This document shows positions 35,286 to 60,651 of a stretch of DNA of 64,000 nucleotides, piece after piece. The notes below the pieces were generated by a model. The model ran no database searches. It was not told where the DNA came from and saw only the letters and a list, made by a program, of their open reading frames with translations. Position 1 is the first letter of the stretch; every line of letters starts with the position of its first letter. The stretch comes from Roseivirga thermotolerans (GTDB lineage Bacteria; Bacteroidota; Bacteroidia; Cytophagales; Cyclobacteriaceae): the NCBI RefSeq assembly GCF_014653175.1, contig NZ_BNAG01000003.1, forward strand, positions 1 to 64,000, in the 5' to 3' direction. Made by a program: the position numbers and the translations under genes.

Positions 35286-35325
35286 CCCACGTCCTAGATA
35301 GGCTCTGAAATGCTTTCTTACTTTG
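35286..35325 (+). promoter_or_regulatory. phage promoter-like element P1
   Basis: Box CCCACGTCCTA (35286-35296), 21 nt, then TTACTTTG (35318-35325); the ATG follows at 35329. First of eight such elements. Confidence 0.7.
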
Positions 35326-35328
35326 GGT

Positions 35329-35979
35329 ATGAGTTACCTTAGTGAAATAGCCAGACTTACCTCTCAGAACATAGGTGGTGTTAATCCATCATTGAAACTT
35401 GTTAGATCTAATGATGTAGCTGTATATCCATCTATTATTGATGGAAAGGTTACCGATGAAATAGCGCTTAAACCTGGTGTTGGTTGGGTAGAGTGGTTCT
35501 GCACTTCCCAAACTGCAGGAATAAGGTCTAGACATGTCGATGGATCAGAAGGAAATGCCAGGGCTCTCGACCTTGGCTTTGTGATTAGTAAGGATACCGC
35601 TGTGAAAGCTAATCAATTAGAACGAGCTTCTGATGACTCCTTTATAGTGCTGTTTAGGGATGCTAATGGACAGTTAAAAGTATTCGGCACAAAGGAAAAG
35701 CCTGTTAGATTTAAGTTTGATCTAGCCACAGGTAATAACATTAGGGCGCTAAATGGCTTCTCTTGCTCCTTTTATTATAGTGGCCCCGACAATAGTGCTT
35801 TCTACTTGGCTGAAGATCCTGAGGTATTAGATCCGGATGTTCCTGCTCCGGTAATTATTCAATGGAATGACGGGGTAACTATTCAGACCATTGCTGTAGC
35901 CTCTCCAGGGGACGTGGTAAGAATTAACAGTGACTTCGATTATACTTCGTTCGACATTAACCCTGTGATAAATCCATGA
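35329..35979 (+). CDS. putative phage tail/fibre-associated protein
   Basis: 216 residues from ATG 35329; an in-frame TTG at 35323 overlaps the -7 element and is less likely. It is beta-rich and has no recognised domain. It opens the first phage unit and is followed by two fibre-like genes with one- to four-base overlaps, so a fibre or baseplate role is inferred from context. Its C-terminal part (PVIIQWNDGVTIQTIAVASP) looks like a small beta-sandwich. Confidence 0.55.
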   Translation: MSYLSEIARLTSQNIGGVNPSLKLVRSNDVAVYPSIIDGKVTDEIALKPGVGWVEWFCTSQTAGIRSRHVDGSEGNARALDLGFVISKDTAVKANQLERASDDSFIVLFRDANGQLKVFGTKEKPVRFKFDLATGNNIRALNGFSCSFYYSGPDNSAFYLAEDPEVLDPDVPAPVIIQWNDGVTIQTIAVASPGDVVRINSDFDYTSFDINPVINP

Positions 35980-36995
35980 GCACTGTAGCGGGACTAAGAG
36001 TTTTGATTGAAGCGCTGGAAAGCGGGAGGGTAACTAAAGCTCAATTACTGACTATTCTATACTATTTAGCTAACCTTATTGAGCAGAATGATATTTCATC
36101 GGTGATCAATGAATACGATGAAGCAGGAACTTACGATACTCCGGGTGCCGGGAATGGAAATCCGGCCTATGCCCTGCTGAATAACAGGCTTTGGAAATCT
36201 AAGGTCGATGCTAATACCGGCAATACTCCACCCACAGATACTGAGATTACTGAGAACGACTATTGGATAGAGGTATCTAAAGGAACGAGCAATCTTTTCC
36301 AGGAATGGCAACCAGGCGTATATGGTGAGGGATTGATTATTGTATTCTATAATGATGTGTTCTACAAACTCACGGTTGCAGAGCGCCCTTTTGAGAGTAC
36401 TAATATTGAAACAGAGTACAACTCTGATCCAGAGCTTTCGAGTTGGAAAAAATTAGCAGGTGATGGTGTTGTAACCGGTGAGGAGTTTACCACTGCTTAT
36501 AAAGCAATGCTAGATCTCATTACCATAACTCAAGAGGTTGACCTGGATCAGGTGGAGGTAGACGTTAATACCAATGCTACAGATATAGGATTGCTGGAAG
36601 CTAGGGCAGATAATATTGAAAATGAGTTACCTGGTAAAAAACCACTAGCCGATGAAGCTGCCAATTTAGACTTTGCTGCTGGTACCGCTTACAACTTTTC
36701 AGATAAACAGACAGCTTACTTTGATGCCGCGCCTATTGGCAATCTAACACCCGTATTTTCAGGGGTTGGGAATCTAAGGTCGGCTATTGGAGAAATATCT
36801 TTTTCTGGACTATTAACAACCAACTGTGAGATAACACTAAGTTCTTCTTGGTTTGCCGGCACGTTGCCAGATGAGGTAACATTCGAAAGCAATGTGCTCA
36901 CTTTTACTGCACCTACCAGTACCTCTCTGTACGTGTGGTATATAATGAAAAAGGGCAGCGAGTATAAGTTCAACATTCAAAAGTTTAAAGACTGA
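35976..36995 (+). CDS. putative tail fibre protein
   Basis: 339 residues. An N-terminal helical stretch (VLIEALESGRVTKAQLLTIL) is followed by a domain with W/Y-rich ends (NRLWKSKVDAN, NDYWIEV) like small carbohydrate-binding modules of phage fibres. A short coiled coil (about 185-215, DVNTNATDIGLLEARADNIE) and a beta-rich C-terminus (TFTAPTSTSLYVWYI) complete the fibre-like order. Overlaps of four and one bases tie it to its neighbours. No family name can be given. Confidence 0.6.
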   Translation: MSTVAGLRVLIEALESGRVTKAQLLTILYYLANLIEQNDISSVINEYDEAGTYDTPGAGNGNPAYALLNNRLWKSKVDANTGNTPPTDTEITENDYWIEVSKGTSNLFQEWQPGVYGEGLIIVFYNDVFYKLTVAERPFESTNIETEYNSDPELSSWKKLAGDGVVTGEEFTTAYKAMLDLITITQEVDLDQVEVDVNTNATDIGLLEARADNIENELPGKKPLADEAANLDFAAGTAYNFSDKQTAYFDAAPIGNLTPVFSGVGNLRSAIGEISFSGLLTTNCEITLSSSWFAGTLPDEVTFESNVLTFTAPTSTSLYVWYIMKKGSEYKFNIQKFKD

Positions 36996-37903
36996 TGAGC
37001 CAGCAGGGGTTAATAGGAAGTAGTGTGGTGACAGGCCAAGTGAAGTATTTGAATGGCTTTTTAGGTGTAGAGCGGGCTTGGCACATTGGCTTTGTACGAA
37101 GATTCAAAGATTATGTAGGTATAGTGGCCACCCTTAGAAGGTACTCAGACGGCGCTACTCATAATCTTTATTATGACAACGGTGATTTTGTTAATTGGGC
37201 CAATACAGATTTATTGAATTTTGTCAACGGTCAAACGGTTGAGATATTGTTCTACAACCAAGTGCCAGAAGCAAATAGTGCATTCGACCAGGCCACTTCT
37301 GCCGCTGGTGAACGGCCAATTATATATACATCTAGTGCCTTTAATACAGCAACCGGCTATCCAGATTTTAAAGCATGGAAATTTAATGGCACCACCCAGT
37401 ATCTGTTCGGGAACACGTTTAATTGGACGACATCTCAAGAGCCATTATACCAAATAGTTGCAGGTGAGCATATTAGTGGTACATACGCCCAGTCATTTGC
37501 TCATACCTCTGTATCAGCTTCTTGGCAAGCAGCTATATTAGGAGGGGCGAGTATTGGTGGCTCATTGCGTACGGGTACAGCAACAACAACTGTCACGACC
37601 CCCTTTACAGGCTCTAATCCTTCTATAATAGGATATCAAGAAAGATCCTCGTCACGTACATTTTCAATTAATGGAAATGAGGTACTGACAGAAAACACTT
37701 CTAATCCATTAAATGGCACAAACACATCTTCCGGTATATATTTCGGGAGATTGCGAGGTCGTGACTTGATTATGTGGGGTGGTAAGATGTTTGAGTCTCT
37801 TGGTTTTTTTTCAATCAAAGATACGCTAGTAAACTATGAAGGTGTTGAAATACCAGAAAGGTTGGCGATTGAGCGAGTGATGAACAAAACATATCAATTT
37901 TAA
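36995..37903 (+). CDS. putative distal tail fibre protein, lectin-like
   Basis: 302 residues, beta-rich, with many Ser, Thr, Gly and aromatic residues. The N-terminal region (GFVRRFKDYVGIVATLRRYS, then VNGQTVEILFYNQ) resembles the start of concanavalin-like sandwich domains in phage fibres. The second half (QYLFGNTFNWTTSQEP, GIYFGRLRGRDLIMWGGKM) fits the rest of that fold. It could bind the host receptor. The assignment is by fold impression and position only. Confidence 0.5.
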   Translation: MSQQGLIGSSVVTGQVKYLNGFLGVERAWHIGFVRRFKDYVGIVATLRRYSDGATHNLYYDNGDFVNWANTDLLNFVNGQTVEILFYNQVPEANSAFDQATSAAGERPIIYTSSAFNTATGYPDFKAWKFNGTTQYLFGNTFNWTTSQEPLYQIVAGEHISGTYAQSFAHTSVSASWQAAILGGASIGGSLRTGTATTTVTTPFTGSNPSIIGYQERSSSRTFSINGNEVLTENTSNPLNGTNTSSGIYFGRLRGRDLIMWGGKMFESLGFFSIKDTLVNYEGVEIPERLAIERVMNKTYQF

Positions 37904-37907
37904 GTCC

Positions 37908-38402
37908 ATGAAAAAACTATCAGACAACCAAATTAACATGCTTTTTGAAAGTCGAGAGCTTACAAAAATGGTTAAGGCGGCACTTGTTAAAATGCGACAA
38001 GATGTTAGGCATCGCTATAGCAAGGCATTTTATCTTATTCCCAAAATAGAAGGTAAGCCAGATGCTCAGCATGTAGATTACCCTGACCTACTAGCCTTGA
38101 GAAAAGAAAGAGATACTACCCTTCCTTTCTGTGATCACTATTACAAAGAGATCGAAAAGGACATAGCCAAGCATGAGCTTGCGATGAGCTTTGCTCAGTT
38201 TGAATATGAAGATGAGATTGAAGGGAAAACCAATTCTACCGAACTCCTGAATTTTGTATTGCAGGCAACATACCAGGGAGAGGGCATGGCTGAGCCGGAG
38301 AATATTTTTGCCCGCATTTTGAGGCAGGCATACTATGAATTCCAGATTAAAGAAATAAGTCTGCAACCAATAGCTGAAGCCCAACCCCAACCCCCTGAAT
38401 AA
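37908..38402 (+). CDS. hypothetical phage protein
   Basis: 164 residues, mainly helical and charged, with a Pro/Gln-rich end (AEAQPQPPE). It follows the fibre genes by four bases and is last in the first unit. A position after fibre genes could fit a fibre chaperone, but no family was recognised. Confidence 0.5.
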   Translation: MKKLSDNQINMLFESRELTKMVKAALVKMRQDVRHRYSKAFYLIPKIEGKPDAQHVDYPDLLALRKERDTTLPFCDHYYKEIEKDIAKHELAMSFAQFEYEDEIEGKTNSTELLNFVLQATYQGEGMAEPENIFARILRQAYYEFQIKEISLQPIAEAQPQPPE

Positions 38403-38413
38403 CAGCCCTATTC

Positions 38414-38452
38414 CCCACGTCCTAATTATGCCCATTACGATGCTCTAGTTTA
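38414..38452 (+). promoter_or_regulatory. phage promoter-like element P2
   Basis: Box CCCACGTCCTA (38414-38424), 20 nt, then CTAGTTTA (38445-38452); the ATG follows at 38462. It drives the protease-capsid unit. No terminator precedes it. Confidence 0.7.
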
Positions 38453-38461
38453 GATATCGTA

Positions 38462-39781
38462 ATGTTTGAACGATTACTTTCTATACGCCACTGGTACCTA
38501 TCAGAAGCCTTTCTGGATAGAGTTGTACCTATCGTTATCAAGCGACTTGAGAACGGAAAAGATCTTAGCGTTGTAGAACAACCTCACACTTTTAATGTCC
38601 TTTCTGGCGGTGTTTATTCCGAATTTTCAAAGAAATATGGAATGCAAATTCTCTTCAATGAGAAGGGAGAAATGGCCGCGCACATTCCGTTGTGGGGCAC
38701 CATGTTCAAGCATTCTGGAATGTGCAACATTGGTACGGCTGAACTAGCCAGCCAGATTCAAACTGCCAACCAGAATAAGGAGGTATTCAAGTCTATAGTA
38801 ATAGATATTGATACACCGGGAGGAGCTGCTAATTCTGTGGAAGTACTCGATAGAGCCATCAGAACGAGTGGATTACCAGTTACCGGTTGGGTAGACACCA
38901 TGGCTTGTAGTGCCGGCCAGTGGACAGCTTCATCTATTGCCGCCTCTGGAGGCAAGGTGATTGTTGACAGCCTGGTGAATAGCGAAATGGGAAGTATTGG
39001 CGCACTAATGCTTTACCAGAACATTGCTGCCAAACTGGAGAAGGAAGGTATTAAGGCAGAAATTATCCGTGCTCCTCAGTCGGTAGATAAAGCCAGGTTC
39101 AACAGTCTGGAAGAACTTACCAAAGAACAAAGGAATGAATTGCTTTCGGAGCTTAAAGACTTAACCGATTCATTCATTTCTGAAGTAAGCGGAAACTATG
39201 GAGGTACACTGAAAGAAGACACACCAAAGCTATGGACCGGTGGCACTTTTAACGGTGCCGAATGTCTGGAGATTGGGCTGGCCCACGAACAGGGAGATCT
39301 ATCTCACGCCTTCAATCTTTCCATAGACATGGCCAACACACGCAAAAAGAAGACTATCAATTTTAATTCAAATATGAGTTTGTTTAAAAGGCTCGGCCTC
39401 TCTTTATCGTTGGCACAAAAGCTGACAGCCGAGGAACTAGAAAACGTAGGTAAAGCTGAAGAGAGGCTGGCCAACGCGGAATCTGAGAACACAAGACTCT
39501 CAGAAGAAAACGGTAATCTGACTACTCAGGTAGCAGATTTGACAGCACAGTTGGAAACTGCCAACAGCACTATTAGCACACACGTGGCAACCATAGCCGA
39601 GCGTGATGCAAGAATTGAGGAGCTTGAAGAGAAGCCTGCAGCAACTACTACTATAGTAGTGGCCGATGGTGACCCAGAAGCTGTAGCAAAGAACCAGGCT
39701 ATCATTGATGCCCTACCACACAACATAGCTGCAGATGCTAACCCAATGTTTAACGGATCATCTAAACCAGAAGAAAAATAA
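38462..39781 (+). CDS. phage prohead protease (S49) fused to scaffold-like domain
   Basis: 439 residues. Residues about 60-285 form an S49/SppA-type serine peptidase: VIDIDTPGGAANS, MACSAGQWTAS with nucleophile Ser150, and the probable catalytic Lys210 (SVDKARF). From about 305 there is a helical coiled-coil region (EELENVGKAEERLANAESEN, then more heptads to 385), as in capsid scaffolds. This order recalls phage lambda C/Nu3, where the scaffold is also made from an internal start. An in-frame ATG at 39374 (MSLFKRLG) is at just the right place. The major capsid gene overlaps the stop (TAATG). Confidence 0.85.
   Translation: MFERLLSIRHWYLSEAFLDRVVPIVIKRLENGKDLSVVEQPHTFNVLSGGVYSEFSKKYGMQILFNEKGEMAAHIPLWGTMFKHSGMCNIGTAELASQIQTANQNKEVFKSIVIDIDTPGGAANSVEVLDRAIRTSGLPVTGWVDTMACSAGQWTASSIAASGGKVIVDSLVNSEMGSIGALMLYQNIAAKLEKEGIKAEIIRAPQSVDKARFNSLEELTKEQRNELLSELKDLTDSFISEVSGNYGGTLKEDTPKLWTGGTFNGAECLEIGLAHEQGDLSHAFNLSIDMANTRKKKTINFNSNMSLFKRLGLSLSLAQKLTAEELENVGKAEERLANAESENTRLSEENGNLTTQVADLTAQLETANSTISTHVATIAERDARIEELEEKPAATTTIVVADGDPEAVAKNQAIIDALPHNIAADANPMFNGSSKPEEK
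39374..39781 (+). CDS. possible internally started scaffold protein
   Basis: In-frame ATG at codon 305 of the protease gene, giving 135 residues: MSLFKRLG, then the full coiled coil to the common stop. It is proposed by analogy with lambda Nu3. No strong ribosome-binding site is visible; the upstream sequence is AT-rich (TTTTAATTCAAAT), as is usual at Bacteroidota starts. Confidence 0.4.
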   Translation: MSLFKRLGLSLSLAQKLTAEELENVGKAEERLANAESENTRLSEENGNLTTQVADLTAQLETANSTISTHVATIAERDARIEELEEKPAATTTIVVADGDPEAVAKNQAIIDALPHNIAADANPMFNGSSKPEEK

Positions 39782-40980
39782 TGACCATTACCGACATTTT
39801 AGCAGAGTTCGGAGCCTATTATATTAATCAGGGTCAGAACATGGCGAGGCTCTACACATTGCTTCACGCAAAGAGCGCTACCGATGCTTTGTTGGCTACA
39901 ACGCCAACTGATGACACTGTATGGAGAGCCGCAAAGGCATCTATTGGCAGTGTAATGCAACCTTTTCAGAAAGGTTGGACACCAAAGGGAGATCCTACAA
40001 TGGAACCCCTGGCTATATCTCAATATAGAATGAAGGTTGATTGTGAACAATATCCCGATGAGCTGAAGGTTAGCTGGCTTGGTTTCCTTGCCGATGGTAA
40101 CCTGGATAGAAAGACATGGCCTTTCATTCGCTGGTTCGTAGAGGTGCTTTTGTTACCTAAAGCGAAAGAAGAGTATGAGCTTGAGGCTGTTTGGGGAGGT
40201 AAGAGAAAAGAGCCTACTGCCGGAACTGCTGGGGAGGCTTATCAGGTGATGGATGGTCTTCATATTGCCAGAAACAGAGCTGTGCTCGATGGTAAAACCG
40301 ACCCTATTTCTCTTGGTGCCTGGGATACAGACGACAAAGTTCTTGTTCAGCAGTTCGAAGAATTTGTTGATGGAATTCCTCACAAGTACAAAGGCGCTCA
40401 AATGCTCATTGGAGTGAATGAGACTATTCAAACAAGGTACTTGAGAGGTAAGCGCGCTTTGTATGGTAAAGACACTGATTTCGCAGGGTCAAATCTTAAA
40501 ATAGATTATAGCAACCTGACCATCGTTGGCTTGCCATCTATGAAAGATTCTCCGGCAATCTGGGCAACTCCAATGGGTAATGCCAGAAAGCTCATGAAGG
40601 AAACTGCCAACATGAGCCAGATTAGAATAGAGAGTGTAGACCGTTTGGTGAAATTGTTCACTGATTGGTTCTCAGGTGTAGGTTTTGTTTTGGGTGAATA
40701 CATTTTTACAAATGACCTTGACCTTGGTAAGCCGGTGATTGATTCTATTTCTCCTTTGGCTGCAGTTACAGCTGGAGGTACTGCCATTACCATTGAAGGG
40801 CGTGAGTTTACTGGAACCACCGCTGTAACACTTGGTGGTACTGCTTGTACTTCTGTAGTAGTAGTGAATGACAGAAAGATAACTTGCGTGACTCCTGCTA
40901 AGTCTGCAGGCGATTATACCATTAACATCGTTAACGGGTTCGGAAACACTACCAGCGTGGATGAAATCACTGTTTCATAA
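39781..40980 (+). CDS. major capsid protein with C-terminal IPT/TIG domain
   Basis: 399 residues, directly after the protease-scaffold gene. Residues 1-315 have no obvious motif but have the size and mixed alpha/beta character of an HK97-fold capsid protein (for example VDRLVKLFTDWFSGVGFVLG near its end). Residues about 318-399 form an IPT/TIG immunoglobulin-like domain: PVIDSISPLAAVTAGGTAIT, IEGREFTG, TVTLGGTAC-like strands and VTPAKSAGDYTINIVNG. Such domains decorate some phage capsids and tails. The capsid call rests on position; the TIG domain is clear. Confidence 0.7.
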   Translation: MTITDILAEFGAYYINQGQNMARLYTLLHAKSATDALLATTPTDDTVWRAAKASIGSVMQPFQKGWTPKGDPTMEPLAISQYRMKVDCEQYPDELKVSWLGFLADGNLDRKTWPFIRWFVEVLLLPKAKEEYELEAVWGGKRKEPTAGTAGEAYQVMDGLHIARNRAVLDGKTDPISLGAWDTDDKVLVQQFEEFVDGIPHKYKGAQMLIGVNETIQTRYLRGKRALYGKDTDFAGSNLKIDYSNLTIVGLPSMKDSPAIWATPMGNARKLMKETANMSQIRIESVDRLVKLFTDWFSGVGFVLGEYIFTNDLDLGKPVIDSISPLAAVTAGGTAITIEGREFTGTTAVTLGGTACTSVVVVNDRKITCVTPAKSAGDYTINIVNGFGNTTSVDEITVS

Positions 40981-40996
40981 GTAAATCTGACTGAAA

Positions 40997-42398: not shown

Positions 42399-42437
42399 AC
42401 CACGTCTTAATTACTGCCAGATGATAGAAGTAGATTG
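42399..42437 (+). promoter_or_regulatory. phage promoter-like element P3 (degenerate box)
   Basis: Box ACCACGTCTTA (42399-42409; 9 of 11 match), 20 nt, then GTAGATTG (42430-42437). Unlike most others the ATG is 44 nt further on (42481). Confidence 0.5.
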
Positions 42438-42480
42438 AAACTCAATAGTAAACCAAGCTGAATTTTACAGTGAAGCTTCA

Positions 42481-42986: not shown

Positions 42987-43352
42987 ATGAAAAACTGGAG
43001 AGTTAGATTTTTGAATTGGCTGGCAAAGCTGTTGAAGGTTGATTTAACAGCTTATAATCCAAAAGATTTACTTCAGATCAATAATGCTGTTTACAGAGTA
43101 GAAACACTAGAGACGGATCCGTTGTTGGTAGACGAAAGGATTCGACAATCTTGGATACAGTATATGGCTGAAACAGGTAAAAGAGATCCGTTTATCGATT
43201 ACTACAAAACGCAATATCTGAAATATGCTGCCCATGATATTGGAGAAAAAATTGTGAAACATAATGCTTATCAACTTTTTGGCTACCAGGAACCAAACCA
43301 AAGGGGTGAGACAATAAAAGCAAGGTTTAGAATGGTATTGCCTGTTAACTAA
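42987..43352 (+). CDS. hypothetical phage protein
   Basis: 121 residues, helical and basic (KNWRVRFLNWLAKLLKVDLT at the start, an amphipathic helix). No promoter box precedes it and a terminator lies just upstream, so its expression is unclear; readthrough or a weak host promoter is possible. No family recognised. Confidence 0.55.
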   Translation: MKNWRVRFLNWLAKLLKVDLTAYNPKDLLQINNAVYRVETLETDPLLVDERIRQSWIQYMAETGKRDPFIDYYKTQYLKYAAHDIGEKIVKHNAYQLFGYQEPNQRGETIKARFRMVLPVN

Positions 43353-43353
43353 T

Positions 43354-43379
43354 TTCCCAATCACCCAATTCCCTAGAAA
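43354..43379 (+). repeat. TTCCC/AATCACC-type intergenic repeat
   Basis: A pyrimidine-rich stretch (TTTCCCAATCACCCAATTCC) precedes promoter element P4. Closely related stretches lie before P6 (51334-51358) and P7 (57618-57647), each just upstream of a promoter box. Confidence 0.55.
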
Positions 43380-43381
43380 TC

Positions 43382-43420
43382 CCCACATCCTAATTATGGC
43401 GATCGCCATGGGATAATTTC
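43382..43420 (+). promoter_or_regulatory. phage promoter-like element P4
   Basis: Box CCCACATCCTA (43382-43392; 10 of 11), 20 nt, then ATAATTTC (43413-43420); the ATG follows at 43426. Confidence 0.65.
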
Positions 43421-43425
43421 GGTAC

Positions 43426-44436
43426 ATGCTAAGAATTCAGGTAAAGCATGTAGCCAAAGAGAAGAAGGAGGAGAAGATAAGGGTGGTAGTACCCCTCCGG
43501 TCTGCGACCACCTCCCCTAGATTAGGGGAGGAAAGTTCGAAGATATCTCCAGCTCCTGTACAAGCTTCACGTCATTCCCGCGAAGGCGGGAATCTCCCAA
43601 CTGAGAGCACTCCAGATCAGGTGAATGCTGCTTCCCTAATTCAGCACTTTGAGAATAAGCAGGCTGACCTGAAGAAGCAAAGGTCCATTCTTAGCAGCTC
43701 AATCTTTGAGATGGTTTTCGGCCATCAGGAAGCACCAACCATAGACATCGGATCGGTGCTCAAGCAATTCGACAATACTTATGATGAAGACACTCAGGAG
43801 GTGTTCGAATATGAGATCATGTTTCTGGCCATGAACCAAAGCAGTGGCAATGCTTATGTGCGGGAAATGAGAGCTCGAAAGAATGTGAAGAGCCCCAAAC
43901 GCCAAATGGTTGAAAAGAACAAGCGAGGCAAGCAGATGTATAACCTGAAATACCAGGGAACGATGCTACTCCACGATTGCCATTCAAAGGGAACAAGGTC
44001 AGTTAAAACCAGAATGATCTTCGCATTCCGCAAGCCAGGGGAAAAGCTGTGGTGTAGAGTGGCGGATAGATCAGGCGGATGGAACGGTAAGCCTGGTATG
44101 CTGAAGCAAGTGTACAAACAAGAGCAGCTCAATGATCTGTACCATAGAATTGATGCCTTTCAGCCAGAAATTCAGGGGGTGTTCAATAAGATCAGAAGCT
44201 TGGAGAATACTGGTAAGCTTCCGGAACAGAGAAGGGTTGGCACCGCAAGAGAACTCGATAGTCTGAAACTGGAGAAGAAAAGGCTCAATGATAAGATATG
44301 CAAAACCAAAAAGAAGCTACGACCCAGCGCCAAGCCCCCTAAGGCTGACAAGGTGATTCAATGGCAACTGGAACTGGCAGAAGCGGAAGCTAGACGAATA
44401 GAGATTGATGAGAAGATTAAAGAACTGATGCCATGA
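43426..44436 (+). CDS. hypothetical phage protein preceding the terminase genes
   Basis: 336 residues, basic. Residues about 22-62 are encoded by two palindromic repeat elements (43511-43531, 43571-43597) read through in frame, giving RSATTSPRLGEE and RHSREGGN. The rest has a central region with CRVADRSGGWNGKPGMLKQV and C-terminal coiled coils (about 240-336). It overlaps the small-terminase-like gene (ATGA), so a DNA-packaging role is possible, but no family was recognised. Confidence 0.6.
   Translation: MLRIQVKHVAKEKKEEKIRVVVPLRSATTSPRLGEESSKISPAPVQASRHSREGGNLPTESTPDQVNAASLIQHFENKQADLKKQRSILSSSIFEMVFGHQEAPTIDIGSVLKQFDNTYDEDTQEVFEYEIMFLAMNQSSGNAYVREMRARKNVKSPKRQMVEKNKRGKQMYNLKYQGTMLLHDCHSKGTRSVKTRMIFAFRKPGEKLWCRVADRSGGWNGKPGMLKQVYKQEQLNDLYHRIDAFQPEIQGVFNKIRSLENTGKLPEQRRVGTARELDSLKLEKKRLNDKICKTKKKLRPSAKPPKADKVIQWQLELAEAEARRIEIDEKIKELMP
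43511..43531. repeat. palindromic repeat inside a coding region (CCTCCCCTA type)
   Basis: Perfect stem CCTCCCCTA/TAGGGGAGG around GAT. This type is common in Bacteroidota intergenic regions; here it is read in frame within the gene at 43426-44436. Confidence 0.65.
43571..43597. repeat. palindromic repeat inside a coding region (GTCATTCCCGCG type)
   Basis: Perfect stem ATTCCCGC/GCGGGAAT around GAAG, preceded by GTC. This is a widespread intergenic palindrome of bacterial genomes. It is translated here as RHSREGGN. Confidence 0.75.
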
Positions 44437-46637: not shown

Positions 46638-46677
46638 CCCACGTCCTAATTAAGCTCTTGGTACTCGAATAGATTTG
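46638..46677 (+). promoter_or_regulatory. phage promoter-like element P5 (best match)
   Basis: Perfect box CCCACGTCCTA (46638-46648), 21 nt, then a perfect TAGATTTG (46670-46677, TAnnTTTG). The portal ATG follows at 46685. Confidence 0.75.
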
Positions 46678-46684
46678 GTATCAA

Positions 46685-48007
46685 ATGAGCGAGCTTAAGA
46701 AGATCGGAGAAGGTATTCACTACTCAGCTGCCAGCCAGTCGGTGCTAGAGGTAACCAGGACAAAGGTTGAACCGGATGCTATCAATAACTATGGCGGTGG
46801 TTCTAATGAGTGGGCTAATTGGGGTGCAGATAATGACTACCCGCAACAACTGGTTGACTTAGTAACCAAGGACCCTACCTCTATGGGTAACATGGAGTTT
46901 AAGATCAAAGCTCATTATGGTGGTGGCCCAATGCTTTATAAGGCAGTGCCTGATGGAAAGAACATGGTCATCGAGCCATTGCTTAGAGAGCAGTATACTG
47001 AGATCGATGACTTCTTTTGGGAGATTGATGTTGAGAACTTAATGCAGGGCACCATCACTGATTTTGAATGGTGGGGGCGCTGCCATGTTGAGTACATTCC
47101 TAATAAGGGAAGGAACGACATTGTCTCAATAGCCAGGCAGAAAACACTAGATATCCGTAAGGCTAAGCTTAACCCTAAGACTGGGCAATTGCCCGGTTAC
47201 TATCTATCTGGTAATTGGCCACAACCAAAGTCACATGAGCGCGTGCTCATCCCTGCTTTTGATAGAAGGAACCCTTTCCAATATCAAAAGGCTATTTATG
47301 AGCACACTGTACCATCAGTAGATAAACTCTACTATACTACCCCTAGCTGGCATAGCAAAACGTCATGGCTAGAAGTAGCCATCAGAATTCCGAAGTGGAT
47401 TCTGAGCAATATGGAAAATGCGGTAAACATTAAGTACCACATTGAAATTCCAGATAAGTACTTCAAAGATCTATACCCTAGAACTCGCTACAAAACAGAT
47501 GAAGAGATGTATGCTGCCAGAGAAGCAGCTGAAGAAGAATTAAAGGGTAAAATAATCGATGCCCTCTCAGGTGTCGAGAATGTTTCAAAAACCTTCTTCA
47601 CCAAATTTGCTACAGACGAAAATGGCAATGTTTTACCAGGCTGGAAAATCAATGTCATTGATAATAAACTCAATGACGAAGCCTGGTTAAAAGCTGACCA
47701 AATAGCCGCCTCCAGAGTAACCACTGCAGATGGTGTGCCTCCTTCATTGACTGGTTTGGTGATAGCAAACACAGCCTCAGGATCTGCATCAGATGTGCGC
47801 GAGCAATTCAACTACTATATGCAGTTGAAATCTGTGATTCCGCGCCAAACCACTTTAGAATGGTTCTACTTTATTAAGCGATTCAAAAAATGGCCGAAAG
47901 ATATCCATCTAGGTCATAAGCAGATCATTCTCCAGACGCTCGATCAGAATAAATCCGGTACAACTTCTTCCGGAGATCCTACACCCACAACCGACAAAAA
48001 GCCTTAG
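46685..48007 (+). CDS. phage portal protein
   Basis: 440 residues. Typical portal features: an N-terminal region leading into EWANWGADNDYPQQLVDLV, a middle with FDRRNPFQYQKAIYEHTVPS, and helical stem segments (KTDEEMYAAREAAEEELKG) before the tail, ending Thr/Pro/Lys-rich. It forms the ring through which DNA enters. It heads a unit with a head-completion-like gene and the lysis genes, and is placed after the terminase as usual. Confidence 0.75.
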   Translation: MSELKKIGEGIHYSAASQSVLEVTRTKVEPDAINNYGGGSNEWANWGADNDYPQQLVDLVTKDPTSMGNMEFKIKAHYGGGPMLYKAVPDGKNMVIEPLLREQYTEIDDFFWEIDVENLMQGTITDFEWWGRCHVEYIPNKGRNDIVSIARQKTLDIRKAKLNPKTGQLPGYYLSGNWPQPKSHERVLIPAFDRRNPFQYQKAIYEHTVPSVDKLYYTTPSWHSKTSWLEVAIRIPKWILSNMENAVNIKYHIEIPDKYFKDLYPRTRYKTDEEMYAAREAAEEELKGKIIDALSGVENVSKTFFTKFATDENGNVLPGWKINVIDNKLNDEAWLKADQIAASRVTTADGVPPSLTGLVIANTASGSASDVREQFNYYMQLKSVIPRQTTLEWFYFIKRFKKWPKDIHLGHKQIILQTLDQNKSGTTSSGDPTPTTDKKP

Positions 48008-51333: not shown

Positions 51334-51387
51334 ACTGATTCCCTAATTCCCAATTCCCCGCGCTTCGCGCTACCCACGTCCTATTTT
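51334..51387 (+). repeat. repeat copy before element P6
   Basis: A TTCCC/AATTCCC-type stretch (51334-51358), then the palindrome GCGCTTCGCGC (51360-51370), then the promoter box. The 28 bases 51360-51387 are identical to 57649-57676. Confidence 0.75.
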
Positions 51388-51412
51388 CTCCCTCTCTATC
51401 AGTACATATTTG
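51373..51412 (+). promoter_or_regulatory. phage promoter-like element P6
   Basis: Perfect box CCCACGTCCTA (51373-51383), 21 nt, then CATATTTG (51405-51412); the ATG follows at 51417. Confidence 0.75.
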
Positions 51413-51416
51413 AACC

Positions 51417-52235
51417 ATGTACACAATGGAAAATCTCTTCCACACCTCCTGGCAGGCACTCACACCAAAGCAGTGCTATCGCATTGTATTCGGTGCCAGA
51501 ATGTACAAAGGCATCTATGCGCCCGGTCGCTTGCCAATGGATGCTGAAATGAAGGTCGCTTCCGATTATCTCTTAGATGTACTCCGTACTGCAGCACTTC
51601 CGGGTAAGTGGAAAATGATCTATACCCAAACCAGTGAAGAGCAGAAGATAGATCTATTTCACGATCTGCCACTGCTCAAGCCGGAAAACGCCTTCAGGCA
51701 ATTCCCGGTAAAGGCAATCAAGTCTCTCCGGAGAAACCTGCATCTGGTAGCGCCAGACGAATCGATGGCCAATAGCACATTCGGGCAATTCAAGTTTGCG
51801 GATAATGAGTTCACGCGCCTGGCATACTTCCAACAAACAGGTGATGCCTACAAAGTCAATGAACAGCTCAACCGTTTAGTGGCCACACTCTATTTACCTA
51901 GTGGTGAGAATTTCGACAAAAGTATGGTAAGCGAATATGCCGATTTGGTTGAACAAATTGTCTTCATATGGCAAAAGGCCCTGATCTTGGAAGCCTATGC
52001 CAACACGCGAGAATTCGTGATCGGCCGTTGCCCAACCTTCTGGCCGAAACCAGAACATAAGGAAGGTGAAGCATCTCCTGCCGTTCCCACCGGGCCAATC
52101 TGGCACGAGCTCCATTACGACCTTGCCGAAAGCGAAGCATTCAAAGGCTTCGATACTGTCGAAAACGCCAACATGTACAACGTATTCGATTACCTAGAAA
52201 ACCTCGCAAAACGTAAACCCAATGCCAATGCTTAA
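51417..52235 (+). CDS. hypothetical phage protein, first tail-unit gene
   Basis: 272 residues, helical, with CYRIVFGARMYKGIYAPGRL near the start and a Pro-rich region around 205-225. No family recognised. It opens the third large structural unit and overlaps the next gene. A second in-frame ATG lies at 51426. Confidence 0.6.
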   Translation: MYTMENLFHTSWQALTPKQCYRIVFGARMYKGIYAPGRLPMDAEMKVASDYLLDVLRTAALPGKWKMIYTQTSEEQKIDLFHDLPLLKPENAFRQFPVKAIKSLRRNLHLVAPDESMANSTFGQFKFADNEFTRLAYFQQTGDAYKVNEQLNRLVATLYLPSGENFDKSMVSEYADLVEQIVFIWQKALILEAYANTREFVIGRCPTFWPKPEHKEGEASPAVPTGPIWHELHYDLAESEAFKGFDTVENANMYNVFDYLENLAKRKPNANA

Positions 52236-55148: not shown

Positions 55149-55150
55149 TT

Positions 55151-55354
55151 ATGAAAACAGAAATATCGCTTGTTTGTAATAAGTGTAGAAACGCATCTTC
55201 TGCAGAGTTAGGAATCAATGAAATACCAGAAGGAGCTGCTCGATTAGTGACAAACTTTTGTCCTAGATGTTCTGAAGGTGACTTCGGTGAAGAATGGTTT
55301 GAAGATTCTAATGGTAATGAGATATCTTTTTCAGAAACATCTGTAAAGGCTTAG
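55151..55354 (+). CDS. small zinc-ribbon-like protein
   Basis: 67 residues from ATG 55151. Two pairs, CNKC (9-12) and CPRC (37-40), form a zinc ribbon; the C-terminus is acidic. It lies between two large tail genes. Function unknown. Confidence 0.55.
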   Translation: MKTEISLVCNKCRNASSAELGINEIPEGAARLVTNFCPRCSEGDFGEEWFEDSNGNEISFSETSVKA

Positions 55355-55384
55355 AGCCCAATACTCTCTACTCAATACTAAAAA

Positions 55385-57289
55385 ATGATAGGCATCAAAC
55401 TAACCACCGGCTTCCTCAAACTCTACCCATCAACTTCCATAGAGCTGATCAGGAATAATCCGCTTATGGCAGAAGACGGAAAGATCCCAGGCACCTACAC
55501 CATCACCATCAAAGTACCTAACGATGCCGATGGCTACAATGCCCGTCTGTTGGGCGCTGTCAATATGGTAGAGAATTATGAGGCTGTCATCAACTCAGAG
55601 CAGGAAGCTACCCTCATGTTCAAAGGCGTGCCCATCGAGCGCGGACTCATCATCATCAAGCCTGGAGACGAGGACACCAACTTCAATATAGATTTCGTAG
55701 GAGGTCTCAGGGCAATCAGCCGCGACATCAAGGATAAGAAAATCAGCGAAATGAGTTGGTCCGATGTAGCTCTTCATGCTATTGGTTTCGGTACCGGTTC
55801 CTCTGCAGAGGTGGCCACTACTGAACTCATGCAAACCGCCCAGACTGCTGCGGTATCCGCTGTCAATGCTGCCAGGGCTGCAGGGCACTTCTACCTACAT
55901 CGATATGAAAATAGGGGTTTTACCGAAGAGCCCGATTTCGAAGGTTTTGTGAACCATGTTAACCCAACGGGTCAGGGAGTTTTGCAGAATGGTTTTTTCA
56001 TCAGCAAGCAGTTTAAATTCATCACCGGAGTAACCGAGAGCGCCAATGGTGGTTTGGAACTTCTTAGCTCCGGGCATATATCAATTACGGTCAATTCTAC
56101 CACATACAGCTCCACAACTGCCAATACCAGCCTAATGGAGAAATATAAAGAGTTGGCCACTATAGTCAATGCTGCTGAATTGGCTACCGGCATAAAACTC
56201 ACAGCCGTGGTAGATCGCGCCAACTACTATATAGACGGTGGTGGCAACCTGGCACAGAATGGAGAAAATGGCCATCTACTCATAGAGGTAAAGAATGGGA
56301 TAGATGAAGATGTAGATCTTTCAGCGTTTACCACGGCAGAGTCAGACTCCAATTGGCAAGAGGTAGAAAACTCAGAAGTAACCAGGTATTCAAATCCATA
56401 TCATTATTGCCCGAGCTTCAGGTTTAGCCAGGTGTTTAGCAAAATTGAGGAAGACTATAACGTAAAATTCACCGGTGCCATTTTTGACAATGCCGACCTG
56501 ATCACCGCGGCCTTCCATACCAACACCTCTATGATGGTGCCGGTAAAAATTGGTGATAGCCCGGTTGATGGCGAATTCTACGCCTTCCGACAAACCTTCA
56601 ATACCGGTGATTACCTGCCCAACTGGACTATCGGCCAGTGGATCCGAGAGGTAGCGCTCCTTTTCTGCTGTGGTGTTATCTACGATCAGTATTCCCGTGT
56701 AATCAAATTCACCTACCTGAGCGATGTCATCGAGAATACCAACTACTACGATGCAAAAGCTCAGGGCATCAAGTTTGCGAAGGGTGTGCCAGATCTCAGC
56801 GCCTATAGCGGCATCACCTTCAAATACAAAGGCACCAAAACCACCGTTCAAAATCAATGGACAACCAACATCATTACCATTGGCACTGGAGAAAAGGAAT
56901 ACCTCATTTCCTTTCAGGTGCTTAGCCCATACTTCAGCACCGATGAAGATGTGAAAGAAGAACCCGTAATCTTCTTCGATAGAGGTATCAATGGCAGTGG
57001 ACAGTTCTTTGGGTGGCAAGAAACAGCCAGTTTTAATTATAATCTAGAAATAGGAGCATGGGGTGGAAATGGCATTTACGAGAAATTCCATAAAGCTTGG
57101 TTCCGCTTTCTCACTACCAGAAAAACCCTACCCGTAACCGCTCTGATGGAGCTCCGGCACATCAACCAACTCAACTTTACAGAAAAGCAGATGTACGATC
57201 GGGTGAAGTACCTGGTAGCCTCTGCCAAAATCCGCCTCACCATGCGCGGCATAGACCGCACAGATCTCACTCTTTACAGCACCCTGTAA
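55385..57289 (+). CDS. phage tail/baseplate protein
   Basis: 634 residues. The N-terminus (FLKLYPSTSIELIRNNPLMA) with TYTITIKVPNDADGYN is typical of a large tail protein found before or after tape-measure genes in Bacteroidota phages. It could be a baseplate hub; this is recognition by pattern, not by a named family. The protein is beta-rich with many aromatic residues. It ends the structural part of this unit, followed by about 100 bases of spacer. Confidence 0.6.
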   Translation: MIGIKLTTGFLKLYPSTSIELIRNNPLMAEDGKIPGTYTITIKVPNDADGYNARLLGAVNMVENYEAVINSEQEATLMFKGVPIERGLIIIKPGDEDTNFNIDFVGGLRAISRDIKDKKISEMSWSDVALHAIGFGTGSSAEVATTELMQTAQTAAVSAVNAARAAGHFYLHRYENRGFTEEPDFEGFVNHVNPTGQGVLQNGFFISKQFKFITGVTESANGGLELLSSGHISITVNSTTYSSTTANTSLMEKYKELATIVNAAELATGIKLTAVVDRANYYIDGGGNLAQNGENGHLLIEVKNGIDEDVDLSAFTTAESDSNWQEVENSEVTRYSNPYHYCPSFRFSQVFSKIEEDYNVKFTGAIFDNADLITAAFHTNTSMMVPVKIGDSPVDGEFYAFRQTFNTGDYLPNWTIGQWIREVALLFCCGVIYDQYSRVIKFTYLSDVIENTNYYDAKAQGIKFAKGVPDLSAYSGITFKYKGTKTTVQNQWTTNIITIGTGEKEYLISFQVLSPYFSTDEDVKEEPVIFFDRGINGSGQFFGWQETASFNYNLEIGAWGGNGIYEKFHKAWFRFLTTRKTLPVTALMELRHINQLNFTEKQMYDRVKYLVASAKIRLTMRGIDRTDLTLYSTL

Positions 57290-57390
57290 GAGTAATCGTC
57301 ATTCAGAGGGGGCACGACCTAAGAACCCCCAAAGTCTGCCATCTTATTCATCAAGTTCTCAGAAATCAGTAGTTTTGAGTATATTCAATC

Positions 57391-57618
57391 ATGCAACAGC
57401 CAGAAACCCCTAGAACTTATGAATTTTTACTATTCATTCTTTTCACATGTTCATTCGCAATGGCTTTATCTCTTGCATTTGATCAGAGTTGGTACTACGG
57501 ATTCATTTGGGCTGGCCTCATTTTACCAGGATTAATAACCAATGCCAGAAAGGTGCTTCCATTCTGTTTTTACACAATGACCAAAGTCATGATCAATTTC
57601 CTTGGCACAAACGCCTGA
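57391..57618 (+). CDS. small phage membrane protein
   Basis: 75 residues with two membrane spans (about 12-30 and 36-52) and a third hydrophobic stretch near the end. Function unknown; superinfection exclusion or lysis control are possible for such genes, but nothing supports a choice. Confidence 0.5.
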   Translation: MQQPETPRTYEFLLFILFTCSFAMALSLAFDQSWYYGFIWAGLILPGLITNARKVLPFCFYTMTKVMINFLGTNA

Positions 57619-57676
57619 TTTCCTAATTCCCCAATCACCTAATTCCCAGCGCTTCGCGCTACCCACGTCCTATTTT
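57618..57676 (+). repeat. repeat copy before element P7
   Basis: A TTCCTAATTCCCC-type stretch and GCGCTTCGCGC precede the promoter box. The 28 bases 57649-57676 are identical to 51360-51387. Confidence 0.75.
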
Positions 57677-57700
57677 ACCCTCCCGTTTCCACCCAATTTC
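57662..57700 (+). promoter_or_regulatory. phage promoter-like element P7
   Basis: Perfect box CCCACGTCCTA (57662-57672), 20 nt, then CCAATTTC (57693-57700); the ATG follows at 57706. Confidence 0.65.
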
Positions 57701-57705
57701 ATAGC

Positions 57706-58254
57706 ATGGAAGCGGTTATTATACCCGAAATTCAGAATGAGCTCAATGCTTTGGCTCAACGCTATGCAGGTCAGTTTCAGCGAAAGGTCAAAGAAGTATT
57801 AGGGCAGAATAAATTCAAAGGCTCAGGAGAACTGCAGCAATCAGTTAAGGTGCGTGTTGTGCCGGCCACGCCTCAAACGGCTCCCAGAATAGAGGTAGAC
57901 TATGCAGAACACGGTGAGCTCATTGGTAAGAGAAAACTGATCTACACCAAATTTGCCAATGTAGACGCCATGCTCAGGTTTGTTCAATCTGGAAAATTCA
58001 GGATGAAGTCCGTTCCTGGTTATGCGCCCGGAGTAGTACCGGCCATCAACGAAGAATCTAAACAAAGGAGAATAGCCTTTGCCATGGCCAAGAGCAGGTT
58101 CGGAGAACACCGCAACAAAGCCAAGCGATGGAAAAAGGAATCTCTTCCTGAACTGCTCAGGGAAATGAATAGAGAATTAGCAACCGTTTGGGCTAATAAA
58201 GCTGCTGAATTAGTCGCGCAAACGCTCACCACTAAACCATATAGTAATGGCTAA
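57706..58254 (+). CDS. putative head-tail joining/tail completion protein (HK97 gp10-like)
   Basis: 182 residues, basic. The pattern of N-terminal helix, FKGSGELQQSVKVRVVPATP beta part, and long C-terminal helices recalls HK97 gp10-like proteins. Placed directly before the tape measure, with an eight-base overlap. Low certainty as to function. Confidence 0.5.
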   Translation: MEAVIIPEIQNELNALAQRYAGQFQRKVKEVLGQNKFKGSGELQQSVKVRVVPATPQTAPRIEVDYAEHGELIGKRKLIYTKFANVDAMLRFVQSGKFRMKSVPGYAPGVVPAINEESKQRRIAFAMAKSRFGEHRNKAKRWKKESLPELLREMNRELATVWANKAAELVAQTLTTKPYSNG

Positions 58255-60499
58255 GGCAAATATTGAGATTGTTCTCTCTAATGGAGAAAAGGCTGGTAAT
58301 TCAATCAACAAACTCAGACAGCAGGCTAATGCTCTTACCAAAGAGATCAATAAGTGGGATGTAGGAACCAAGGAGTTTGAGAAAGCTCAGGCAGATCTTC
58401 AAAAGGTTGCACCAAAACTCAAGGCGCTTAGGCAAGAGGCATATGGGTTAAGTCAGGCTAATCAATCAGTAGTATCAACATTCTCCCAATACATTCCCTT
58501 TGGTGGTTCCCTCCGGAGCATGGCGGCCGGAGCTCGTACCGGTGTAGTAGCCTTTAAGTCACTCAGAGCAGCTATTGCCGCTACTGGTATTGGTCTCTTA
58601 GTATTGGCTATTGCCAGTGTGGTTTCCTGGTTCAAGCGAACCGAACAAGGCGCGCAAACCCTTCGGGTGATCATGGCGGGGCTTGGTCAGTTTGTAGACT
58701 CATTTATGGATATTATCACCGGTTTGGGCGAAGCAATCTTCAAGGCCTTCAGCAATCCTAAAGAGGCGGTTATTGGTTTGTGGGAAATCATCAAAAGTCA
58801 GGTCATCAATAGGGTTACCGGTATTATCGATACCTTCAGATTTTTGGGTAAAACCATCGAGTCTGCCTTTAACCTCGATTGGGAAGGAGTAAAGAAAAAC
58901 GCTGCTGCAGCAGGCGAAAGCATTGCTCAATCCATTACCGGGGTAGACGATGTGGGTAATAAGCTGGTAGCTACTTTCAACAAAGCCAAAGATGCCATTA
59001 GCGGCACCTTCTCAGAACTCAAAAACGATGCTCAGGCCGCAATGGCTCTGGCACGGGATGAGAATAACCTCCGGGTAAGGAATCGTGAATTTTTGGTAGA
59101 ACAGGCTAAATACGAAGCTGAAATAGCCAAGTTGAGAGAATACGCCACAGACGTAACTCGTACCGATCAGGAAAGGCAACAGGCTTTGGCTGAATCTGCC
59201 AGGCTACTCAATGAACTTTCAGATAAAAAGATAGCCCTCAAGGCTGAAGAGCTCAGAATACTCCAAGAGCAACAAGCCATTTCCATTACCGATGAAGAAG
59301 GCTATGAAAAAGAAGCTCAATTGCAGGCAGAGCTTATTCGCTTGCAGGAGGAACGTGCCGCCACCATGAGGCGAATCACCTCTCAGGAATCTGCCCTTAG
59401 AGATAAGATAAACCGCGAGACTGAAGCCGAAGCCAAAAAGACTGCAGAAACCGAGCTCAAAATTGTCCAGGAGCTGGAAGATCTCAAGATTGAGGCCATG
59501 CAGGAAGGCGAAGAAAAAGCTATTGCCGAAAAGGAACTCCAGTTCCAGCGTAAAATCGAAAACCTCATTGGCACCGAAGAGCAGATCAAGGAACAGGAAA
59601 AACTACTGCTCGAAATCAAAGAGCAGGAGCTGCAGGAGATTCGAGATAAGTATGCAGGTGAACGTAAGAAGAAGGAAGATGAGGAAAGAGACGCCCGGTT
59701 AAAAAAGGAGCAGGAAGATGCTGAAAAGCGCAAGAAAATTCAGGAGATATACAATACTGCGCTTGAAGATATCGAAAATGCTAAGCGGGAAACCTTCCAA
59801 ACCACCACAGCAGTTCTGGCCGATCTGCTTGAACAAGACGCCAAGAATGTAGAGATAGCCAAAGGCATTCGTAAAGCAGCTGCTTTAGTAGATATTGCCC
59901 TCAATCTGCAGAATCAAATTTCAAACATAAATCTTACGGCAACTCAAATTGCGGCTACGATCCCCCCCCCTTTCGGAGTAGCTATTTCAAAGGCTTACTC
60001 AATTGCCTCTAAGACAGCAGCCATTGCCGGAGCAATCAGCCAGGCCAATGAGGTGCGAAAAATGGAAGATGGTGGTTTACTCGTTGGTCCCCGCCATTAT
60101 AATAGAGGTATTCCGGCCACCATCACATCAACCGGTGAACCAATAGAGCTGGAAGGTGGCGAATACGTTCTCAGAAGAACGGCAGTGCAAGCCTTAGGCA
60201 CTCCATACCTCGATTTCCTGAACAGCCGTAAATACGAAGCCGGTGGGCCAATCAATCCTTTTAGTAGGTCATCGGTAACCACTACTGCAGCACCAACTCA
60301 GGGAGCCTCCAGTTCCTCCGGAGCAGATAGCCAAACAGCCGCTGCAGCAGACAACTCCATGGCCATGCTTCAGGAATTCCGCGCCTTCCGCCAGGAGGTA
60401 AGCACCTGGCAGCGCAATCTCAAGGTCAACAATAACCTGCAGGAGGTAAAGGGCGGACTTACCCAACTCAATAATCTTCAAGATCAGAGTGAGGTCTGA
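58247..60499 (+). CDS. phage tail tape-measure protein
   Basis: 750 residues. An N-terminal helical region (LRQQANALTKEINKWDVGTK) is followed by hydrophobic segments (about 95-130, GIGLLVLAIASVVSW), a long coiled coil (about 250-520, E/K/Q-rich), further hydrophobic stretches (about 540-605), and a Gly/Ser/Ala-rich C-terminus. This is the usual tape-measure order and the length implies a tail of moderate length. A run of nine C at 59962-59970 lies inside the gene. Last structural gene before the cargo cassette. Confidence 0.85.
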   Translation: MAKANIEIVLSNGEKAGNSINKLRQQANALTKEINKWDVGTKEFEKAQADLQKVAPKLKALRQEAYGLSQANQSVVSTFSQYIPFGGSLRSMAAGARTGVVAFKSLRAAIAATGIGLLVLAIASVVSWFKRTEQGAQTLRVIMAGLGQFVDSFMDIITGLGEAIFKAFSNPKEAVIGLWEIIKSQVINRVTGIIDTFRFLGKTIESAFNLDWEGVKKNAAAAGESIAQSITGVDDVGNKLVATFNKAKDAISGTFSELKNDAQAAMALARDENNLRVRNREFLVEQAKYEAEIAKLREYATDVTRTDQERQQALAESARLLNELSDKKIALKAEELRILQEQQAISITDEEGYEKEAQLQAELIRLQEERAATMRRITSQESALRDKINRETEAEAKKTAETELKIVQELEDLKIEAMQEGEEKAIAEKELQFQRKIENLIGTEEQIKEQEKLLLEIKEQELQEIRDKYAGERKKKEDEERDARLKKEQEDAEKRKKIQEIYNTALEDIENAKRETFQTTTAVLADLLEQDAKNVEIAKGIRKAAALVDIALNLQNQISNINLTATQIAATIPPPFGVAISKAYSIASKTAAIAGAISQANEVRKMEDGGLLVGPRHYNRGIPATITSTGEPIELEGGEYVLRRTAVQALGTPYLDFLNSRKYEAGGPINPFSRSSVTTTAAPTQGASSSSGADSQTAAAADNSMAMLQEFRAFRQEVSTWQRNLKVNNNLQEVKGGLTQLNNLQDQSEV

Positions 60500-60520
60500 C
60501 TCCTCCTGCTTCGCCACAAT

Positions 60521-60596
60521 GCCTTTGCCGGTAGGCAGGCTTGCCCTCCTTTACGGGAGGTGTCCCGATAAATCGGGACGGAGGGGTACTGCCCCT
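60521..60596. repeat. cluster of four hairpin repeats after the tape-measure gene
   Basis: In order: GCCT...AGGC (60521-60537), CCTCC...GGAGG (60545-60560), the perfect GTCCCGATAAATCGGGAC (60562-60579), and AGGGG...CCCCT (60582-60596). The third and fourth types resemble intergenic repeats seen in other Bacteroidota. They may help end transcription from the tail unit. Confidence 0.6.
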
Positions 60597-60611
60597 GTTT
60601 GGTACGATTTT

Positions 60612-60651
60612 AGCACGTACTAAACCATAACCAATCAGTTAACTATCTTTA
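60612..60651 (+). promoter_or_regulatory. phage promoter-like element P8 (degenerate box)
   Basis: Box AGCACGTACTA (60612-60622; 8 of 11), 21 nt, then TATCTTTA (60644-60651). The ATG is 35 nt further on (60686), so this one has a leader, as at P3. Confidence 0.5.

Follow-up and report, generated by a model that had tools for sequence, protein, structure and literature searches.

Recurring GTCCT boxes and host-type −7 elements as predicted late promoters of a Roseivirga thermotolerans prophage and related Bacteroidota phages

What reads the short box that recurs ahead of the late genes of a prophage in Roseivirga thermotolerans (Bacteroidota), and does that box act as a promoter element? The prophage lies in a 64,000-nucleotide (nt) stretch of DNA, here called the window (positions 1 to 64,000 of contig NZ_BNAG01000003.1, assembly GCF_014653175.1). 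An earlier note had listed eight copies of the box, each followed after 20 or 21 nt by an octamer resembling the host −7 box TAnnTTTG, and had ascribed them to late-gene control by a phage sigma factor or an activator. All eight were found where that note had placed them, five exact and those at 43382, 42399 and 60612 with one, two and three mismatches, respectively (Table 1). Judged from their sequence and arrangement, these elements are very probably promoters. The explanation that best covers all observations, and a probable one, is that they are late promoters served by host sigma-A together with a phage activator, with leaderless starts and, in a minority of copies, a translation lock.

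A two-part element with fixed spacing

The exact box (CCCACGTCCTA) occurs five times on the forward strand and never on the reverse strand of the 4,208,140-base genome, every copy lying in the prophage ahead of late genes; the reversed pattern, used as a control, occurs once forward and four times reverse. When the pattern was extended by the A and the TT of the −7 box, with up to two mismatches allowed, the whole genome yielded eight forward matches, all in the prophage (seven of the eight noted copies, 60612 being too weak for this search, and a copy at contig position 69663), and four other-strand matches elsewhere, each at two mismatches; the reversed-pattern control gave 17 + 17. Across 19 genomes of the genus, the 13-mer form of the box was present in its own genome alone. 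A loose count allowing three mismatches over the whole window speaks against enrichment, with 64 occurrences where shuffles average 98, so it is the strict form of the box, together with where it stands, that carries the signal. The ninth copy at 69663 (L006:5663-5706) is weak (TCCAAGTCCTA) and lies outside the window in the early region, before a small gene whose ATG is 40 nt past the G of GTCCT; its −7 box is poor.

Counted from the G of GTCCT, the A of the −7 box stands at +28 and its TT at +31/+32 in seven of the eight window copies, the one at 35286 being a base longer, and each of 24 other offsets (−12 to +12) is occupied by no copy or one. The two values of the gap reported earlier, 20 or 21 nt, are a matter of register.

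Relatives, both phages and prophages, were gathered by terminase and portal searches, giving a main set of 103 loci and 988 upstream regions (near-duplicate contigs being kept in the pentamer strand count) and, after near-duplicate removal, 233 elements from 77 loci. In the noncoding DNA of these relatives, a blind search for recurring words turned up one core in phage after phage: Polaribacter phage Leef_1 and Bacteroides phage BT-TP2 share TGTCCTTTT, Microcystis phage Mea-Yong924-1 has CTGTCCTTA and Cellulophaga phage Ingeline_1 has TCATGTCCT, and further phages gave other words with this core; several scanned stretches yielded no such word. The conserved core, GTCCT, is the most sense-biased pentamer (305 sense, 83 antisense) and stands upstream of a gene at least once in 86 of the 103 loci and at least three times in 57. 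Aligned on it, the elements have a T before the core and, after it, T or A and then a run of T. Where the ATG lies at 34–44 nt (91 copies), A occurs at +28 in 81%, T at +31, +32 and +33 in 93, 98 and 57%, and G at +34 in 79%, which spells TAnnTTTG. This −7 box begins 22 nt past GTCCT regardless of the distance to the gene: among the 91 copies whose ATG is 45–70 nt away, the best −7 offset is still 27 in 57, and the leader is A-rich. In the full set, A at +28 with TT at +31/+32 is found in 142 of 233 elements; a shift of +1, where the T run overlaps, gives 63, and eleven other shifts give 0–5. Box and −7 box are thus locked to each other and not to the gene, which argues for a promoter. The host −33 element TTTG was not encountered: the bases from +3 to +8 are C T T T T T, no G being conserved among them, and GTCCT is found instead. 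The host promoter that the earlier note had taken for comparison, at 20655-20686, exists, on the minus strand.

The same arrangement was seen in 50 further loci from later scans, held out from the building of the model (L299 and L303 being one contig). There GTCCT ranked second in sense bias (101 sense, 35 antisense; 409 regions), and in 59 new elements the three bases stood at the same offset in 30, at +1 in 10 and at eleven other shifts in 0–2. Distant phages thus keep the spacing between GTCCT and a −7 box of host type that is seen in this prophage. The Bacteroidota-type element is also present, together with proteins related to those of Bacteroidota phages, in phage Mea-Yong924-1 (L217, MZ447863.1), whose record names Microcystis; that host label may be wrong. 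Beyond the relatives, an IMG/VR scan for CCCACGTCCTAWT followed by ATG returned 96 stretches (L042-L137) that look like chance and were set aside; among 80 of these checked (L042-L121), only L091 has a second box at one mismatch or fewer, on the other strand.

Table 1. Coordinates of the elements, repeats and genes discussed. Positions are those of the window unless marked otherwise; numbers in parentheses give the distance of the ATG from the G of GTCCT.
Feature	Position	Strand	Details
Candidate late activator	34763-35230	+	155 aa, GTG start, 61 nt before first GTCCT
Element 1	35286-35326	+	Box 35286-35296, exact; −7 box 35319-35326, spacing one base longer; ATG 35329 (+38)
Element 2	38414-38464	+	Box 38414-38424, exact; −7 box 38446-38453; ATG 38462 (+43)
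Element 2, inverted repeat	38433-38441/38456-38464		9 bp, spans ATG 38462
Element 3	42399-42438	+	Variant box ACCACGTCTTA, 2 mismatches; −7 box 42431-42438; ATG 42481 (+77)
Element 4	43382-43452	+	Box CCCACATCCTA, 1 mismatch; −7 box 43414-43421; ATG 43426 on predicted start (+39)
Element 4, repeats	43396-43409; 43423-43430/43445-43452		Palindrome; second repeat
Element 5	46638-46698	+	Box 46638-46648, exact; −7 box 46670-46677; ATG 46685, portal gene (+42)
Element 5, inverted repeat	46650-46657/46691-46698
Element 6	51373-51422	+	Box 51373-51383, exact; −7 box 51405-51412; ATG 51417 on predicted start (+39)
Element 6, inverted repeat	51402-51407/51417-51422
Element 7	57662-57715	+	Box 57662-57672, exact; −7 box 57694-57701; ATG 57706 on predicted start (+39)
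Element 7, inverted repeat	57683-57691/57707-57715
Element 8 (weak)	60612-60685	+	Box AGCACGTACTA, 3 mismatches; −7 box 60644-60651; ATG 60686 (+69)
Element 8, inverted repeat	about 60636-60652/60670-60685		Two-part, ends at ATG 60686
S49-type protease	38462	+	Late gene
Capsid	39781	+	Late gene
Terminase	44986	+	Late gene
Portal	46685	+	Late gene
Endolysin	49555	+	Late gene
Tape measure	58247	+	Late gene
Primase-like early gene	contig 70003-72888		Beyond window
Serine recombinase	contig 74326-75945 (L006:10326-11947)		3′ end overlaps tRNA-Leu(caa), opposite strand, contig 75865-75947
Early LuxR-like regulators	L216 19714-20301; L219 15323-15928; L218 44905-45462; L220 41889-42461		Four phages

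Predicted starts and inverted repeats

Two features go beyond what had been claimed for this DNA: a predicted transcription start that falls on the ATG, and inverted repeats. In Flavobacterium psychrophilum the sigma-A box TAnnTTTG sits at −12 to −5 (PMC9723704), and in that register the predicted start lies 39 nt past the G of GTCCT. If the ATG is taken to be the first in frame that lies 30 nt or more beyond the G, +39 is also the commonest ATG position (59 of 233 elements, against 7 at +38 and 6 at +40), beside a second, broad class at about 48–60; in the held-out set the ATG is at +39 in 8 of 30 and between 38 and 40 in 13 of 30. Since predicted start and commonest ATG position coincide, many late mRNAs should be leaderless, and a class of late messages beginning on the A of the ATG is, from this register, quite likely. 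Leaderless mRNAs are rare in such hosts: published figures are 5.5% in F. psychrophilum (PMC9723704) and, in Bacteroides thetaiotaomicron, about 3.7% of 5′ untranslated regions under 10 nt (PMC7366714).

Many copies also carry a palindromic stretch that differs in sequence from copy to copy while the pairing is kept (38414, 51373 and 57662 in the window; L260 8574, L197 8325, L181 19380). Stems were scored in 142 promoter-grade elements against shuffles that preserve the −7 box and the ATG, and a score of at least 11 was reached by 29 (24 loci), against 4.0 expected per shuffled set. Of stems placed as in the phage T4 I-TevI hairpin, whose left arm lies mostly upstream of the predicted start while the right arm is at the ATG, there were 17 where 0.5 were expected (both arms inside the promoter's own RNA, 4 against 1.7), and the held-out elements gave 8 of 30 against 1.75 for all kinds and 6 of 30 against 0.25 for the I-TevI-like placement. 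When arms were swapped between elements, perfect pairing of at least 8 bp was found in 11 of 130 real cases against a mean of 1.4 (the largest of 200 swaps being 5), with controls of 1 against 0.8 for a stretch deeper in the gene and 8 of 472 against 4.5 for box-less genes of the same loci. A stem score of 9.5 was reached by 23 of the 35 elements of the protease family, and three relatives with 47–51% terminase identity (L224, L226, L228) have a hairpin between box and −7 box in the copy before the equivalent of the gene at 43426, with changes on both arms (AAATGGCGAC/GTCGCCATTT and AATTGGCGAC/GTCGCCAATT; the window copy there has ATGGCGATCGCCAT). In the window itself, five elements fold more stably than shuffles (z −2.9 at 43382, −2.2 at 46638, −2.4 at 51373, −2.8 at 57662 and −4.2 at 60612, where 0 of 200 shuffles were equally stable). 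A role of the repeats as DNA operator for a repressor was rejected because the arms vary between copies.

The favoured reading of these repeats, and one given about even chances on this analysis, is that they act as a lock on translation. In the minority of copies that carry one, read-through RNA from upstream would fold through the inverted repeat and hide the start codon, while RNA born at the promoter itself would lack the left arm and leave the start codon free. Several results weigh against this reading: 113 of the 142 elements score below 11 and have no strong stem; the window elements at 35286, 38414 and 42399 (z −0.8, −1.4 and +0.9) are no more stably folded than their shuffled versions; without filtering, left arms upstream of the start are no commoner among real stems (30 of 52) than among shuffled ones (119 of 211); and the position of the right arm is only weakly correlated with that of the ATG (at score 10, rho 0.44 and p 0.026; at score 11, rho 0.39 and p 0.095). 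G.T outnumber A.C mismatches 19 to 5, yet do so 11 to 6 in shuffles, which does not decide between pairing in RNA and in DNA.

The candidate activator and rival explanations

The gene that might supply the activator had been presumed to lie outside the window. That is probably wrong, as the best candidate (34763-35230) stands directly upstream of the first box and is the only conserved open reading frame (ORF) of the window prophage to lie before it. Profile searches with a limit of E ≤ 0.001 recovered homologs from 63 of the 146 loci searched (61 at a stricter setting), including all six named phages. Promoter-grade GTCCT follows within 750 nt of the homolog's stop in 36 of these 63 loci, and 11 have none downstream on the available piece; same-strand sites lie downstream of the homolog in 162 cases and upstream in 23, the pieces usually extending further downstream. 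The BT-TP2 copy, whose start is called longer in the present analysis, is annotated as a 'transcriptional regulator'. The family has no Pfam or NCBIfam match above cut-off, no solved relative by sequence (best E 0.063), and in PHROGs a strong match for the laban6-1 copy alone (phrog_21888, E 1e-25, function unassigned there). An AlphaFold2 (AF2) model built from 42 sequences (pLDDT 93.2, pTM 0.85) has strands at 7-15 and 64-71 with helices between them and three helices after; in a viral library, Foldseek gave a Leef_1 relative as the sole significant match. A profile scan of 392 genomes of the phylum gave at least five matches, a lower bound, since it used a loose first pass and scored at most nine candidates per genome. 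By place and conservation, the odds that the product of this gene is the activator are about level.

In the mechanism proposed here, host RNA polymerase with sigma-A would read the ordinary −7 box TAnnTTTG of each late promoter, and the phage activator would bind GTCCT at about −39 to −35, taking over the job of the host −33 element; transcription would begin 39 nt past the G of GTCCT, often on the A of the ATG, giving a leaderless late mRNA. Several observations count against parts of this scheme. The core is not invariant, reading GTCTT in Flavobacterium phage 6H and GTCAC in laban6-1 and L298 (at the same place in 6H and laban6-1), and 17 of the 103 loci have no GTCCT upstream of a gene. 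The AF2 model resembles no solved DNA-binding protein, Foldseek in the PDB giving 0 matches at E ≤ 0.001; chains of F-plasmid TraM among the best weak matches (probability 0.10-0.23) were not used. Divergence of the box does not clearly follow that of the activator once terminase divergence is taken into account (partial Mantel p 0.10 in 30 of 35 groups, five having been dropped for want of a clear box or for a truncated activator), and covariation of box and activator, not being separable from phage relatedness, was set aside as evidence.

Promoter nature and late control, as proposed earlier, are strongly supported by the comparison among phages; as to the agent, an activator working with host sigma fits better than a phage sigma factor and is likely, because the −7 box stays host-like and no sigma factor was matched by Pfam among the 21 prophage proteins scanned (the prophage has more ORFs). 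A phage-encoded sigma factor reading GTCCT and −7 box alike would equally be expected to impose a fixed two-part spacing, and the candidate protein, belonging to no known family, could be a much-changed sigma; against this the −7 box is the host consensus and, among the Foldseek hits, no solved sigma domain shares the AF2 fold, which leaves such a factor improbable. A further reading is that the activator is some other phage protein, for example an early LuxR-like one, and that the product of 34763 is a virion or assembly protein. Annotated, mutually related LuxR-like regulators are present in Leef_1, Ingeline_1, laban6-1 and 6H (Table 1), and other late families are found, like that of 34763, in all six named phages, those that can be named being structural and some small late ORFs being unnamed. 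The LuxR-like proteins were set aside since they have no BLAST relative among the window prophage ORFs, whereas every one of the six named phages has a relative of 34763, which precedes the late region; an activator other than 34763 is a serious possibility, though the less favoured one.

The box might instead work in RNA, as a processing or translation signal before each gene and not as a promoter, as its close and regular distance to the start codon and its frequent position directly after a terminator-like hairpin of the preceding gene (L012 8427, L014 7342) would allow. RNA, however, has no use for a −7 box of host type that keeps its distance from the box wherever the ATG lies, and no Rfam family was found in the window from 28000 to 64000; this reading is very unlikely. 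The inverted repeats, for their part, could act at the DNA level, as a cruciform or hairpin that offers polymerase the −7 box or start site, much as the hairpin promoters of phage N4 do. The TTTG does lie in the loop of several copies (L197 8325, L260 8574, L181 19380), and arm sequence varies with pairing kept; but in copies with longer leaders the −7 box falls within the left arm (mean centre 26–28) and the right arm stays at the ATG, and the ATG is at the right arm in 27 of 52 stems against 39 of 211 shuffled ones, so that action on DNA is unlikely.

Late promoters read by host sigma-A and a phage activator thus remain the preferred explanation. Extended, more speculatively, to the Bacteroidota tailed phages at large (including Duneviridae and Helgolandviridae), it would mean a possible shared late programme in which a new class of activator, unrelated to known families, captures sigma-A polymerase at GTCCT to make largely leaderless mRNAs, many promoters lying within a hairpin or terminator that silences read-through, so that late proteins come from late promoters only. 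If this is true, one box, one spacing and one candidate family would offer, for many Bacteroidota phages of gut, soil and sea, late promoters and an activator that can be tested; leaderless mRNAs would have a natural source in a phylum without Shine-Dalgarno sequences; and throughout whole late modules a single stretch of DNA would serve as both promoter and translation lock.

Prophage setting and known systems

The prophage is that of a temperate phage that runs past the end of the window, with plus-strand late genes from about 34.7 kb; 3′ of the late block come a minus-strand gene at 62963 and then, in the next stretch of the contig, early genes. The overlap of the serine recombinase gene with tRNA-Leu (Table 1) likely marks the right end and attachment site, and the left end is placed only to within 33976-34763; comparison of the two ends gave no direct repeat longer than 13 bp. 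At 60612-62918, 3′ of the tape measure gene, the weakest element is followed by what look like cargo genes: a small lipoprotein-like ORF, then genes for a TPR protein and for a protein of 259 aa. Some boxes are adjoined upstream by AATTCCC-AATTCCC-type repeats and a small GCGC-TTC-GCGC hairpin (51350-51372, 57640-57661; 43350-43381), perhaps terminators of the preceding gene.

Among known systems, the SAS/ESAS elements of cluster K mycobacteriophages are likewise short boxes repeated before many phage genes, some with inverted repeats, and are tied to translation initiation, whereas here the −7 box at fixed spacing points to transcription. The hairpin promoters of the N4 virion RNA polymerase also have an inverted repeat at the promoter, with a hairpin of conserved sequence a set distance from the start site; the arms described here, by contrast, are not conserved in sequence, differ among copies of one phage and go with the start codon. 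The sigma-A promoters of Bacteroidota hosts have the same TAnnTTTG at −12 to −5 (PMC9723704) and differ in the −33 element, which is absent here with GTCCT in its place.

Two further parallels involve phage T4. In the hairpins of I-TevI, I-TevII, I-TevIII and segB, and of Aeh1 mobE, RNA from an upstream promoter hides the start region; for I-TevI it folds over the ribosome binding site, and late RNA starting from a promoter inside the repeat lacks the left arm, the same geometry as proposed here (PMC2988022). Those hairpins guard single homing-endonuclease genes and a Shine-Dalgarno sequence, whereas the elements reported here precede structural genes in many phages, without a Shine-Dalgarno sequence and often with predicted leaderless starts, the I-TevI-type placement being found in a minority. 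T4 middle promoters, where MotA and AsiA appropriate host sigma, likewise keep a host −10-class element and replace the upstream element by a phage box at fixed spacing (PMC6755090); the MotA box is there centred near −30, while here GTCCT occupies −39 to −35 and the −7 box, ahead of late genes, is of the Bacteroidota kind. No MotA or AsiA homolog was named in Pfam, PHROG and NCBIfam scans of part of the prophage ORFs, and the element works like T4-type sigma appropriation without being a member of it. A literature search, with most subscription journals outside its coverage, returned no description of the box or of late transcription control in Bacteroidota phages. A phage box joined to a host core element is known in kind from the T4 middle promoters (PMC6755090); what is new is the sequence of the box, the phylum, the predicted leaderless starts and the repeated joining of promoter and proposed lock.

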